DNA from: Fibrobacter sp.
GTDB taxonomy: Bacteria > Fibrobacterota > Fibrobacteria > Fibrobacterales > Fibrobacteraceae
NCBI GenBank assembly: GCA_017503015.1
Contig: JAFVTX010000014.1
Location: 1 to 47,248 of the forward strand
Length of the DNA: 47,248 nt
Direction of reading: 5' to 3'
Both the position numbers and the translations under genes were made by a program. Below, in pieces: positions 11,323 through 16,332 of this stretch (the stretch's first letter is position 1; the number at the start of each line of letters is the position of its first letter). Under the pieces are notes generated by a model. It did no database searches and was not told the origin of the DNA. It saw only the letters and a program-made list of their open reading frames with translations.

Positions 11323-14300
11323 TTACTCAGAATCCTTTACACAACGGACGGAGAATGCGAACCTCTTGATGTAGTCGTTCTGGCTCGCAAGGTCGTAATG
11401 GTCGCCCAGGAACACACCGTAGGCGTTGCTGCTATAGTATTCAGTAGCACTCCAGAAGTAGGCATTGGTGATTCCGCCGTCGAAGGAGCCCCCGTAGCGG
11501 CCAGCGGGCCGTGCGGAAAAGCCGTAATCGTCTGTTCCGTTGCCATTATGATACCAACCCGTCTTTGACTTGAGCATTTTTCCAGCCGTAGAATCTCCAC
11601 CCACCGCAGTAAAAAGCGATTCAAATTCATTTTTTGTTGGCAAATGCCAACCCTCGGGGCAAATTCCACGAACAGGATAAGTCGGTGAGCAAGTTTTTCC
11701 ATAACCGCAATTTTTTCCATTGGTGCTAAAAGTCCCTGCACTATCCATAGCGGCAGCCCATGTATAGAGTCTGCCATATTTTGTACAGCTATCCAAACGG
11801 TTTATGTAGCACCAGCTTCGTCCTTCCATACCGGGATAATTAATGGAATCCGCATAGTTAAGATTTTCAGCCATCCAGGTCTGAGAACCGATGATAACGG
11901 TTTTATAGGATTTCAAGTCTCTTTCATCAATCAACAAACTACCATACACAATATACATCTCAACAGAACCCGTCCACGCGCCGTTTTTGCAAGCATAAAC
12001 GGAATCACGTCCTTCGTATATTTGTTTTCTAATTACATCATTTTCTGTATAACTTACGCATCCCTTATTCAACGAAACTTCCATTTCATTAACCGTTCTA
12101 AACACACCAGTATCACACACATACTTATTTTCAGCAACAACTTCGCCACCTACAATAGAACCATCTTCATAGCAAGTTTTTCCGTATGTGTCATATTCCA
12201 GCACAGTAGCCGTCTCCCAACTCCCTGACTTACAGATATAAAACACATCGTTCAACTTTTCGACAACTCCGCTGTTTGAAGCGGTGCAATATCCAAGGCC
12301 ATATTCTTCAGCGGTTATCTGCTTCCAAGCCTTATTTTCGCAGATGTAATACTTACCACTCTGAATATGCTTTTCGTCACTTCTGCTAGCGACACAAGCA
12401 CCGAACTCATATTCCATATCATTTGCCGTAGCACGCCACGCCCCATCTGTATAGGTATAATGGTTTGACGAAATCACCGAACCAGGCTTCATTTCGCCCT
12501 CAGTCCCTGCGGTCCACTGATAAGTGTCATACTCTAGGGCCGTAGACAACACCCATCCACCTGATTTACAGGTGTAATATTTATTGCCAGACTTACCAAC
12601 TTCATTTAGTCGGCTGGTTACACACGCTCCGAGATTATTTTCTATCTCATTGGCACTTGCTCGCCATGCCCCATTCTCATAGACATAGAACTTGTCCTGG
12701 TTCACCTTGCCCACCCGAACTTCACCTTCTTCGCCAACACCAAATCCGTCGGTGTCATATTCCAGCACAGTTGCCTTGCGCCAGTTCTTGTTGTCACAGA
12801 TAAAATACGTAGTATCGATTTTACTAATCTCGCCATTACGGCTGACAGTACAAAGCCCTAAGGCAGTCTCATTCTTCGCAACCGTCCACTTGCCGTCTTC
12901 AAACACGTAATAGGCTTCGGTCACGTCACCCTTCTTGACTTCGCCCTCTTCGCCATCGGTCCACTCGTAGGTATCCTTCTCGAAATCGGTCGCCTTCTGC
13001 CAACTGGTCACCTTACAGATGTAGTGGACATTGTAGTTCTTGCTCTTTGAGTTCTTGTTTTGCGCAATTACGCCGGACCTTGTCGCAGAGCAGCCGCCCA
13101 GTTCGTAGGCATTGTTCCAGTAAATGGTCAGGTAGTTTTCGTAGTCGGGAATGTCCAGGATGTTCCAGCTCTTTACGTTCGCACGGACCGAACCGCCATC
13201 AAAACTTTCCGCCCAGTCCGCCATATCAGCCTTCATCTGCCCGTCGTCCCACTCTCCGTCTTCCGCCAGGTCGCTCTTGAAACTATTAATCGCATTTTGG
13301 ATTTCGGCTTCGCTCCTGTCGCCAATGAAAAGCAACGAAATCGCCATCAGGGTGGCATTATCCGCATAATTTTTGCTAGTCGAAGGCACGAACGTCTTCA
13401 GGTCTTCGGAATACTCCACCGAAGTGGCAAAACCGAACGCCGTCATAATTTCGTAATCCGCCTGTTTCTTGGCCGCATATACGCTGTAGCCCTTGTTCAC
13501 GAGTTTTACCGCACGGTCGTATTCTAGATGGGTAAGCAGGTTGATGTTCACTTCGGTGCGTTTGCTCAAGTCAGTCAACACGCGGAGCGTCATAGAATCC
13601 TTGGAATATTCGCCACTGACTTCGTTACGCCACAAGCCACGGACTTCAAGTACCGCGTAAGGATAAACAAGATTCACCTTCGGAATCACAAAGTCGCCCT
13701 TGTTGCTGGAAATCTCGTCGATGTATTCGCGGCCCGTGTAGGTCAGAGCGTCGTCGTGCAAAAGGACTTCGCGGAGCGTCAGGGGCGAATCGAACTTGAA
13801 AGGACCCTTCTGCGCCGCACCCAAAATGGACGCGTTCTTCACGATATAGCCGTCGGCGGTCTCGGGCATCCACTTTACGGAATCGCATTTGAAGAAGACG
13901 GAATCCTTCTTGACCAAAATGCGCTGCTTGGCGTTGCCTGCGTGGCATTGAGGCAAGTTTTCCTTGGCGGGAACGATGTCGTAACCCAGGTAGGTATCGT
14001 CCTTTGCCCAGCCATTTGCCTTGCAGGTATAATAGGTGGAATCCGCTAGTACCAAGGCACGTAGGCCGATGGCGCCGGAATCGCAGGTGGCAAGTTTGTC
14101 TTTTGACTGCACTTCGATGTAGGACTCGCGAACCGAAGAACTGGAGCCGTTGCCGCTTAACGGGTCGTCCACAGCGGAACTGCTAGATTCCGGGTCGTTG
14201 CCCGGAATGACGCTGGAGGAAGATTCGTCATTCTTGCGCCCCTCTTCGTCATTCTCGCGGATGCGAGAATCTGTGGAATCTATGTTAACCCACTTTCCAC

Positions 14301-14523
14301 TTAGGCAAACATAATCAGCTTTTTCATCTTTAACAAAGACGGTGTCGCCATCGAATTCACTGGTGCAGTCGCCCAGGCTGTAGATGGAGGAAACAACCTC
14401 TACCTTGTTGGGAGCGTCGGCATCGCTGCCGCTATCTCCGCAGGCGGCGAGAATTGCCATGGATCCTATCGCCACTACGTGGCTCCAGGATGACGTTAAA
14501 CGCGAGATAGTCCCTTTTTGCAT
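11323..14523 (-). CDS. large FISUMP lipoprotein with internal repeats
   Basis: This 1066-residue lipoprotein has a lipobox LAAC (Cys 28) and an AAGGAGG Shine-Dalgarno. A Ser-rich linker (about 100-135) leads to a region of unknown fold (about 235-480). Then follow about six to eight imperfect ~60-75-residue repeats with a Y-Y-x-C-x-x-x-x-W core, often followed by ATxLEYDT and then a G-x-C-x-x-S start. The C-terminal ~190 residues form a FISUMP domain (VIIGSQTWMAENLNYAD, RSWCYINRLDSC, GRLYTWAAAM, RGICPEGWHLPT, GTDDYGFSARPAG, FWSATEYYS, SVRCVKD). The 3' part of the gene (about 11323-12650) is visibly AT-richer than the 5' part. It is a likely surface protein; its ligand is unknown. Confidence 0.85.
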   Translation of the reverse strand: MQKGTISRLTSSWSHVVAIGSMAILAACGDSGSDADAPNKVEVVSSIYSLGDCTSEFDGDTVFVKDEKADYVCLSGKWVNIDSTDSRIRENDEEGRKNDESSSSVIPGNDPESSSSAVDDPLSGNGSSSSVRESYIEVQSKDKLATCDSGAIGLRALVLADSTYYTCKANGWAKDDTYLGYDIVPAKENLPQCHAGNAKQRILVKKDSVFFKCDSVKWMPETADGYIVKNASILGAAQKGPFKFDSPLTLREVLLHDDALTYTGREYIDEISSNKGDFVIPKVNLVYPYAVLEVRGLWRNEVSGEYSKDSMTLRVLTDLSKRTEVNINLLTHLEYDRAVKLVNKGYSVYAAKKQADYEIMTAFGFATSVEYSEDLKTFVPSTSKNYADNATLMAISLLFIGDRSEAEIQNAINSFKSDLAEDGEWDDGQMKADMADWAESFDGGSVRANVKSWNILDIPDYENYLTIYWNNAYELGGCSATRSGVIAQNKNSKSKNYNVHYICKVTSWQKATDFEKDTYEWTDGEEGEVKKGDVTEAYYVFEDGKWTVAKNETALGLCTVSRNGEISKIDTTYFICDNKNWRKATVLEYDTDGFGVGEEGEVRVGKVNQDKFYVYENGAWRASANEIENNLGACVTSRLNEVGKSGNKYYTCKSGGWVLSTALEYDTYQWTAGTEGEMKPGSVISSNHYTYTDGAWRATANDMEYEFGACVASRSDEKHIQSGKYYICENKAWKQITAEEYGLGYCTASNSGVVEKLNDVFYICKSGSWETATVLEYDTYGKTCYEDGSIVGGEVVAENKYVCDTGVFRTVNEMEVSLNKGCVSYTENDVIRKQIYEGRDSVYACKNGAWTGSVEMYIVYGSLLIDERDLKSYKTVIIGSQTWMAENLNYADSINYPGMEGRSWCYINRLDSCTKYGRLYTWAAAMDSAGTFSTNGKNCGYGKTCSPTYPVRGICPEGWHLPTKNEFESLFTAVGGDSTAGKMLKSKTGWYHNGNGTDDYGFSARPAGRYGGSFDGGITNAYFWSATEYYSSNAYGVFLGDHYDLASQNDYIKRFAFSVRCVKDSE

Positions 14524-14601
14524 AGAGCCTCCTTGGGCGACATGTTTTTGCCTGCCTTGGAATGCCCTGATTTCGGTTCAGCCTTTTTTTGAACTTTCCA
14601 C

Positions 14602-14766
14602 AAAAAAAGCGTGAGCCGTTGTCAGTGCAATCCTATCTGAGGCTCTGGAATGCCTATACCCGAAAAGCACAAACGACCCACGCCCACTGGGGCGTGAACA
14701 TTTGCCACTTAAACTCAGGTATTAGAAATTTTCCAGATTTCAGATAGAGTTCAAGAGCAACGCTCA
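14602..14766 (-). ncRNA. candidate rod-shaped small RNA (6S-like shape)
   Basis: Read on the minus strand, six helices stack into one rod: TGAGCGTTG (14766-14758) with CAACGGCTCA (14621-14612, one bulged G); CTATCTGA (14747-14740) with TCAGATAG (14640-14633); CTGGAA with TTCCAG; ATACCTG with CGGGTAT; CAAATG with CGTTTG; and CACGCCC-CAGT-GGGCGTG (14696-14679). Two helices contain G-U pairs that become C-A mismatches on the other strand, which points to minus-strand transcription. The closing stem is followed by CGC and seven U (14608-14602), as in an intrinsic terminator. A TAGTTTG sequence just upstream could be the promoter. It could be 6S RNA or an untranslated leader of the lipoprotein gene starting at 14523; no Rfam family is certain. 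Confidence 0.45.
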
Positions 14767-15024
14767 AACTATGTCAAACCAGTCTATAAACTTATAAGTC
14801 CCTCTCCAGAAATCAACGAACCGCCAGCCGCGCAAGTCCAGTCTGCACAACAAAACACATCGCCAAATTCCGCGACATTACATGAATAAATATATCATAA
14901 AAAAGGGCGAAAAGCACAAGAAAAAAGCTATTTCTCCCAAAAACAACCCTAGATTCTATCGGCCCCTTCGGGGCCTCCAGAATGACAGAAGGACAAGCGG
15001 GGCTTATGACCTTCCGAATAAAGC
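14767..15024. other. intergenic region; repeat hairpin near dgt 3' end
   Basis: No gene is visible here. ATTCT-ATC-GGCCCC-TTC-GGGGCC-TCC-AGAAT (14953-14982, followed by GAC) is a long hairpin of the GTCAT repeat family. It lies where a terminator for the leftward dgt transcript would be, though no strong U-run follows. The stretch 14767-14950 is AT-rich, with no other pattern I can name. Confidence 0.5.
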
Positions 15025-16332
15025 CTACAGTCCCGTTACCAGGCCACCGATTTGGCGGGCCAGGTAGGTGGCGTAGTTGTCGGTCATGCCGCTCACAAAG
15101 TCCAGCACCTGGTGGTAGGCCTCGGCGGTAGTGACGCTCTGGCCAATCTTGGCGTTGCCAATCAGCCGCACGATTCGGCTTGCCCGGTAGGAGCTCTTCA
15201 CGTTCACCCGGTAGTCATGAACACCGCTGATAAAGGCATCCAGCACGGTGCTCAGGGTGGTGTAGCTCCCCACTTCCAGTTCGGTCTTGCGGCGGTCGGG
15301 GTAAATGCGTTCACGGCCCAGGCGCTTGGCGATAAAGATTCCCCGCATGGCATCGGAACGGGACAGGTCTATCAGGTGCTTGTCCAGAGTGCCTTCCATA
15401 ATCTGCTCGTAATTATTGGCAAAGACCACCGCCACATCGTCGATGAGGTTCTGGATGGCCTTGCCGCGAACGCTGGAGAGGAAGTCCCTGAAGTTCTGGC
15501 CGTTCTCTTCGTATTCCTTGTCGATGTTGATGTCCGGACCGCAGAGGTAGCTGAACATGTCGCGGACATCGGCAAAGGTAAGGATGCCCAGCTCGATGGC
15601 GTCTTCTACGTCGAGAATGGAATAGCAGATGTCGTCGGCGGCTTCCATCAGGTAAACCAGGGGGTGCCTCACCCACTTCCCGTTCCCGATTTCGGGGAGC
15701 CCGAGAATTTCCGCTGTGGTCCTGTACAAATCCGCCTCGGTAGAGAACAAGCTGGTGGGGTGACCGTAGCAGGCCAGAGACGGGTACTTGATCATGGCCC
15801 CGATGGTGGCGTAGGTCAGCCGCATGCCGCCATCCAGAAAGTGGTATTCCAGCTTGGAGAGAATGCGGTGGCCCTGGGCGTTTCCGTCAAAGTTCTCGAA
15901 GTCCGCCAGTTCCTTGTCGGTCATGTCCTTCAGAGGGTCGGAATTGCGGTTCTTGCGGAACCATTCGCGAATGGCGGACTCCCCCGCGTGCCCAAAGGGC
16001 GGGTTTCCGATGTCGTGGGCCAGGCAAGCTGACTGGACGATAGTTCCAAAGTGGTACTCGTTGATGCTCTTGGGCAGGTACTTCTTGATCAGGTGATAAA
16101 CCGTCACCGCAAGGCTTCGGCCCACGCTGGCCACCTCGATACTGTGGGTCAGGCGGCTGTGCACGTGGTCGTTTACGGAGAAGGGATGGACCTGGGTCTT
16201 GCGGCCCAGCCTGCGGAACGCCGTCGAAAAAACGATGCGGTCAAAGTCCCTATGAAAGTCCGAACGGTTGGGGTCACGGTCTGCGGGGTGACCATAGCGG
16301 GTAGCCGAAAGAAGAGTTTCCCAGTTCAGCAT
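15025..16332 (-). CDS. dgt: dGTP triphosphohydrolase (HD superfamily)
   Basis: Dgt-family enzymes split dNTPs, classically dGTP, into the deoxynucleoside and triphosphate, limiting dNTP pools. The 435-residue protein carries the family start (DRDPNRSDFHRDFDRIVFSTAFRRL, about 18-42) and the HD metal site: H63 in RLTHSIEV, H106-D107 in CLAHDIGNPPFGHAGE, and a later D in MEAADDICYSILDVEDA. Its ATG overlaps the proB stop in an ATGA (16330-16334), so the two are translationally coupled. Confidence 0.92.
   Translation of the reverse strand: MLNWETLLSATRYGHPADRDPNRSDFHRDFDRIVFSTAFRRLGRKTQVHPFSVNDHVHSRLTHSIEVASVGRSLAVTVYHLIKKYLPKSINEYHFGTIVQSACLAHDIGNPPFGHAGESAIREWFRKNRNSDPLKDMTDKELADFENFDGNAQGHRILSKLEYHFLDGGMRLTYATIGAMIKYPSLACYGHPTSLFSTEADLYRTTAEILGLPEIGNGKWVRHPLVYLMEAADDICYSILDVEDAIELGILTFADVRDMFSYLCGPDINIDKEYEENGQNFRDFLSSVRGKAIQNLIDDVAVVFANNYEQIMEGTLDKHLIDLSRSDAMRGIFIAKRLGRERIYPDRRKTELEVGSYTTLSTVLDAFISGVHDYRVNVKSSYRASRIVRLIGNAKIGQSVTTAEAYHQVLDFVSGMTDNYATYLARQIGGLVTGL

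Follow-up and report, generated by a model that had tools for sequence, protein, structure and literature searches.

What kind of RNA is encoded on the minus strand around positions 14602–14766 of this Fibrobacter contig, and does it act alone or on the genes beside it? An earlier note, made from the letters of the window (the whole 47,248-nt stretch of DNA analyzed here), had proposed a rod-shaped RNA of about 165 nt that ends like an intrinsic terminator. The minimum free energy fold of the minus strand over 14602–14766 is indeed the proposed six-helix rod with a CAGT tetraloop (−67.3 kcal/mol, z −5.98), and none of 200 dinucleotide shuffles was equally stable. The preference for the minus strand is upheld as well, because the plus strand of the same region folds less well (z −4.99). 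Rfam gave zero family matches for the whole window at gathering thresholds, no match in the rod region at E ≤ 1 with chance matches alone at E ≤ 10, and none in eight further loci of the family described below. From comparison with other copies, we consider the feature quite probably to be one copy of a multi-copy, cis-acting leader RNA that would have its own promoter and work as a bistable transcription attenuator. The parts that make up the rod are listed here.

14602–14775, minus strand: entire leader RNA, predicted start GACATAG through U run (fold z −5.98 and covariance-model match)
14755–14765, minus strand: H0, local hairpin GAGC-GTT-GCTC (direct reading)
14741–14746, minus strand: v1, 5′ arm of rod helix 1, pairs with v4 at 14634–14639 (cognate-specific, covarying)
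14731–14736, minus strand: L1, loop of hairpin hp1, CUGGAA, pairs with L2 at 14645–14650
14718–14722, minus strand: v2, 5′ arm of rod helix 3, pairs with v3 near 14656–14660 (0 of 20,000 permutations)
14671–14703, minus strand: H3, apical rod helix (14690–14703 with 14671–14685) around the CAGT tetraloop

The element is widespread. A DNA search with the 211-bp region matched 77 of 80 Fibrobacter genomes, often at several places, and a covariance model trained on 32 copies found 79 of the 80, with 1 to 30 matches each. The window copy, which is part of the model seed, matched this model (R1) at 14601–14768 with 114.7 bits (E 5.8e-23). The source genome has 17 model matches corresponding to about 12 copies, since a copy whose apical loop is expanded gives two matches. 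Across the phylum Fibrobacterota, 95 of 168 genomes carried matches, other genera and families included, as did 14 of 148 Bacteroidota genomes, down to E 4.5e-12; among ten genomes from other groups the best E-value was 0.011, and the best two, which show the same architecture, are Bacteroidota (all of these E-values are rough). A restriction to Fibrobacter, suggested by a pattern scan, was therefore rejected on the phylum-wide and Bacteroidota matches. A phage or plasmid origin was also rejected: no similar DNA was matched in phage or plasmid records, and core-motif matches in viral sequences (IMG/VR) lacked the architecture and are due to chance. No description of this leader RNA in Fibrobacter was found in the literature searched, and the RNA switch family apparently has no name so far.

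Each copy has the same order of segments, the 5′ half running v1, hp1 loop L1, v2 and the 3′ half v3, hp2 loop L2, v4. Over 58 distinct copies, v1:v4, L1:L2 and v2:v3 paired far better within their own copy than between copies (0 of 20,000 permutations each), and the wrong-arm controls v1:v3 and v2:v4 were null in the same permutation test. The cognate test gave 0 of 10,000 when repeated on the copies from other Fibrobacterota, and again 0 of 10,000 on those from Bacteroidota. On the alignment, 90.3% of rod cells were paired; cells changed on both sides numbered 182, vs. 69.5 ± 6 under shuffling and never more than 62 under sliding, and the covariation score was 0.453 vs. 0.171. L1:L2 was paired in 97.6% of cells, with changes on both sides at all six pairs. 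H3 was paired in 98.6% of cells, a conservation that, like that of the terminator stem T below, is partly biased because the copy set was gathered partly via a core sequence pattern, a choice that leaves the variable arms unaffected. The note had proposed relatives and covariation as a check, and three successive rod helices covary in this family, which occurs in 79 of the 80 Fibrobacter genomes. Together, fold, family, covariation and cognate tests strongly support a minus-strand RNA that is structured, conserved and covarying and that carries a terminator.

The architecture varies among copies. In type B copies (L024, L026, L044, L097, L106, L273, and others) the apical loop of H3 is about 100 nt longer and holds extra hairpins, and some of these inserts resemble dispersed palindromic repeats (CATTGCGAG...GAAGCAATCTC) present also in intergenic DNA of the same genomes. 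Type A/C copies (L013, L063, L124, L223, and others) have an extra variable hairpin right after GACATAG, 5′ of the rod (e.g., GCCCCGTACCGAATGGTTCGGAGC); this hairpin seems to covary and is absent from the window copy. Two degenerate copies, L275 (G144) and L123, kept the terminator, and their 5′ domain has diverged or is partly lost.

Is the rod the only fold? As a sole fold it was rejected, as three further stems covary as local stems in the same RNA.

14708–14755, minus strand: P_a, local 5′ hairpin domain (14747–14755 with 14708–14716), encloses hp1 (14725–14741)
14625–14671, minus strand: P_b, local 3′ hairpin domain (14662–14671 with 14625–14633), encloses hp2 (14640–14655)
14609–14683, minus strand: T, terminator stem, 14672–14683 (GCGUGGGUCGUU) with 14609–14620 (AACGGCUCACGC)
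14602–14608, minus strand: U7 tract of the intrinsic terminator (direct reading)

The arms of P_a, P_b, and T each fit their own partner better than the partners from other copies (0 of 10,000 permutations each), and when the P arms were crossed between domains, as the rod needs, pairing was weak or null. T was paired in 97.5% of cells over 32 copies and the local fold as a whole in 91.5% of alignment cells. The cognate test was weak for the hp1 stem (127 of 10,000) and without significance for the hp2 stem (1602 of 10,000), because both stems vary little. In the window copy the 5′ half reaches z −3.3 and the 3′ half −33.2 kcal/mol (z −4.25). Against dinucleotide shuffles, mean z-scores for rod and two-hairpin state were −7.3 and −6.2 in Fibrobacter, −8.1 and −5.6 in other Fibrobacterota, and −6.9 and −4.9 in Bacteroidota.

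T abuts U7 in the window copy, and a U-rich tract directly follows T in the aligned copies. The seven U and the terminator of the earlier reading are thus in place; the stem that runs into them is the alternative T, not the closing stem of the rod. The hairpin GAGC-GTT-GCTC (H0), which the note had entered as a caveat, is likewise present and is better seen as a conserved part of the switch: its sequence doubles as part of the rod closing helix (with 14610–14619) and as the outer segment of the local 5′ domain, and H0 competes with the closing helix. GAG-N-CTC is kept in nearly all Fibrobacter copies, and some copies from other Fibrobacterota have GCGTTAACGC.

H3 and T have 14672–14683 in common. 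Because they use one strand, terminator and rod are mutually exclusive, and because the 3′ arm of H3 is the 5′ arm of T, H3 would take the part of an antiterminator. The computed rod is the lower-energy state in most copies, by a mean of 5.6 kcal/mol in Fibrobacter and by 12 kcal/mol in the window copy. Termination would therefore have to be under kinetic control or be brought about by induction, and what stops transcription is probably the order of folding or a bound factor. A compact pseudoknot may also combine P_a and P_b with the cross-pairs.

The surroundings of the element bear on whether it acts alone.

14783–14788, minus strand: predicted −10 box TATAGA, the element's own promoter (aligned with other copies)
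11323–14523, minus strand: FISUMP-domain lipoprotein gene, 1066 aa, downstream of the window copy (open reading frame; PF09603, E 1.3e-31)
15025–16332, minus strand: HD-domain (dGTPase-like) gene, upstream neighbor outside the element (PF01966, E 2.1e-06)

Among 71 copies, a TATATT-like box lies at a fixed distance upstream of GACAT, with T at −8 in 80% and at −7 in 86%; GACAT would mark the transcript start or its immediate vicinity, placing the start of the window copy at about 14775, some 250 nt after the stop of the HD-domain gene. The TAGTTTG that the note had taken for a promoter motif does occur (14765–14771), and its place as promoter element goes to the position-locked −10 box, which is conserved between copies. 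The FISUMP gene starts 78 nt after the U run, preceded by a ribosome-binding-like AAGGAGG (14528–14534); in Fibrobacter copies, the gap to the same-strand open reading frame that follows has a median of 63 nt and falls within 20–150 nt in 93 of 117 cases. A locked −10 box with a close same-strand reading frame argues for a promoter followed by a leader rather than for a small RNA at a distance from genes, and the downstream gene would depend on read-through from the leader promoter.

The note had compared the shape with 6S RNA, and one rival reading is an independent small RNA acting in trans (6S-like or of another kind) that happens to lie beside genes and ends in an ordinary terminator. The rod shape, the promoter box and the terminator all suit such an RNA, and a terminated RNA of about 170 nt would be stable; it is harder to reconcile with copies that directly precede a same-strand gene at the spacing just given, with up to 30 matches per genome, with a locus lacking a 6S match, and with two conserved, incompatible folds that would be superfluous in a plain small RNA, and we regard it as improbable. 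The likeness to 6S RNA (RF00013; 6S-Flavo, RF01685) holds for length and for the long rod-like shape. It ends there: 6S RNA is usually present in one or few copies and transcribed alone, whereas the leader is multi-copy, fixed directly before same-strand genes, and unmatched at the locus by a 6S covariance model, on which grounds 6S identity was rejected. RF00013 had no match in the window (its best score in the genome, on a different contig, was 18.2 bits against a cutoff of 46.4), and RF01685 had no match, its positive control also being without one. The note had further held that transcription as part of a leader would speak against a discrete small RNA. The leader part applies; since the leader has its own promoter and a conditional terminator, a discrete RNA of about 170 nt is still expected as the prematurely terminated product.

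We therefore return to the attenuator as the preferred reading. As in an attenuator, an intrinsic terminator lies between promoter and start codon, and the alternative helix that excludes it is conserved by covariation. In the proposed read-through state, the 5′ and 3′ halves would pair lengthwise (v1:v4, L1:L2, v2:v3, and H3) into the rod, in which H3 would sequester the 5′ terminator strand. In the stop state, each half would fold locally, giving P_a/hp1 on the 5′ side and P_b/hp2 atop T on the 3′ side, and T running into U7 would release an RNA of about 170 nt. Conversion of the hairpins into the rod would begin at their complementary loops, L1 and L2. Comparison of sequences between copies shows the family, both folds, the strand common to them, the promoter box and the downstream gene; from these we infer that the rod corresponds to read-through, that a signal (protein, ligand, or the speed of folding or transcription) would set the balance of the two states, and that the switch would regulate the downstream gene.

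Known attenuators (trp leader, ANTAR/EutV targets, T-box, many riboswitches) likewise sit just downstream of a promoter and have one strand (here 14671–14685) common to an antiterminator and an intrinsic terminator abutting a U run; unlike in them, the antiterminated state here is a full-length rod formed from paired halves, whose arms are hypervariable but covarying. Inspection of the window copy by eye revealed no leader peptide, and the leader RNA gave no ANTAR dual hexaloop or T-box match. Among described RNAs, the one lead from Rfam is Pedo-repair (RF01715), typed there as cis-regulatory and listed for Pedobacter only (Weinberg et al., 2010; PMC2864571). The Chitinophaga copy L286, and only this copy, aligns with it end to end, including the conserved GGAAA/UUUCC loop pairing and the flanking long-range helices, at 27.4 bits against a gathering score of 150 (E 0.013 in 19 kb, 1.6e-4 when that region alone is scanned). 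RF01715 had no match to the Fibrobacter copies, nor any in 148 Bacteroidota and 395 class-level genomes, a search in which the control likewise had no match. Pedo-repair may be a distant relative, a single-genus member of a larger leader family.

The rod arms change fast. Between the window locus and its relative L005 the flanks are 99% and 94% identical, yet the arms differ with complementarity kept: v1/v4 goes from TATCT/AGATA to CACTT/AAGTG, and v2/v3 has changed too. Over 34 non-identical orthologue-like pairs, which are not independent, mean identity was 0.67–0.69 for v1, v2, and v4 and 0.77 for v3; in the same non-independent pairs it was 0.88–0.93 for L1, L2, H3, and T. Compensated, independent replacement of v1/v4 or v2/v3 between near-identical flanks was seen in L002/L003 vs. 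L004/L005, L013/L203, L022/L136, and L144/L282. Such quick compensated replacement suggests one of two causes: copies are selected to stay insulated from one another, or mutation or conversion proceeds in an unusual way. Diversifying selection has a simple alternative in conversion from paralogous copies.

This turnover, together with the multi-copy, quasi-palindromic character of the element and its frequent position near horizontally acquired genes, could also be expected of a dispersed DNA-level quasi-palindrome, either REP/MITE-like or a recombination site of the attC kind, in which template-switch repair or a cruciform function would maintain arm complementarity. Such an element would leave the locked −10 box, the constant orientation and spacing to the downstream start and the U run after the terminator stem without a role; selection on local stems is superfluous for a palindrome, and the G-U pairs are those of the minus strand, though the strand asymmetry of the fold is modest. 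We consider this explanation most improbable.

In plasmid copy-control antisense pairs (RNAI/RNAII, CopA/CopT), complementary hairpin loops initiate pairing that spreads into an extended duplex, and the recognition segments are variable. The leader likewise has two hairpins with complementary loops and variable recognition segments, but here both hairpins lie in one transcript, in cis, and the terminator is built into the second. Antisense control in trans would have the variable arms of the terminated RNA pair with nascent RNA of their own locus as feedback, the fast arms insulating loci as do the copy-control loops. The copy-specific arms that change rapidly between orthologues, and the complementarity of the hp1 and hp2 loops as in kissing systems, are compatible with this; the same pairs can, however, be satisfied in cis by the released RNA, and arm replacement is also explicable by gene conversion between paralogues, so that we think it very unlikely.

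Under the preferred attenuator reading, the genes that follow the leader indicate what it might control. Among 77 non-redundant first downstream proteins, Pfam assigned FISUMP to 12, N6_Mtase to 9, Eco57I to 4, and C5-methylase, N6_N4_Mtase, MethyltransfD12, MmeI and HsdM_N to 3 each (categories overlap). PADLOC and NCBIfam identified type I, II, IIG, and III methyltransferases among the first downstream proteins, with eight MAD2-like and two DISARM DrmD proteins. In the matched control of 64 upstream neighbors of leader copies, FISUMP occurred in two, and no DNA methyltransferase was among the best 25 families listed. First downstream genes in Fibrobacter are thus enriched in DNA methyltransferase/restriction and FISUMP genes relative to upstream neighbors, and the regulon therefore looks like defence and surface functions. 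The downstream genes have no metabolite in common, and no small ligand, as a riboswitch would bind, is suggested by them. Abortive-infection and toxin genes among the upstream neighbors place many of the loci in defence islands. DUF4417 proteins lie directly downstream of the leader in 4 of the 77 cases (L050, L065, L072, L082), a recurrence that suggests a defence role for DUF4417. Sampled neighbors in Bacteroidota include TonB-dependent receptor plug proteins 226–272 nt downstream, ECF-type sigma factors and a response regulator; L288, L290, L303, L304, and L306 lie 200–270 nt before TonB-dependent receptor (plug domain) genes, and L296 and L300 upstream of ECF-type sigma factors.

A broader reading, which we regard as unlikely, is a cross-phylum class of switches in which complementary loops convert two hairpins into a rod and so cancel a terminator. 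It would serve as a shared control module for surface proteins and for horizontally acquired operons of restriction-modification and defence, and its arms would be under diversifying selection that insulates the loci, which may even be controlled in trans by their own terminated RNA. Cross-copy covariation for both competing folds is rarely available for a switch. Because acquired restriction-modification and defence genes carry the same leader, the family offers a handle on how such genes are restrained.
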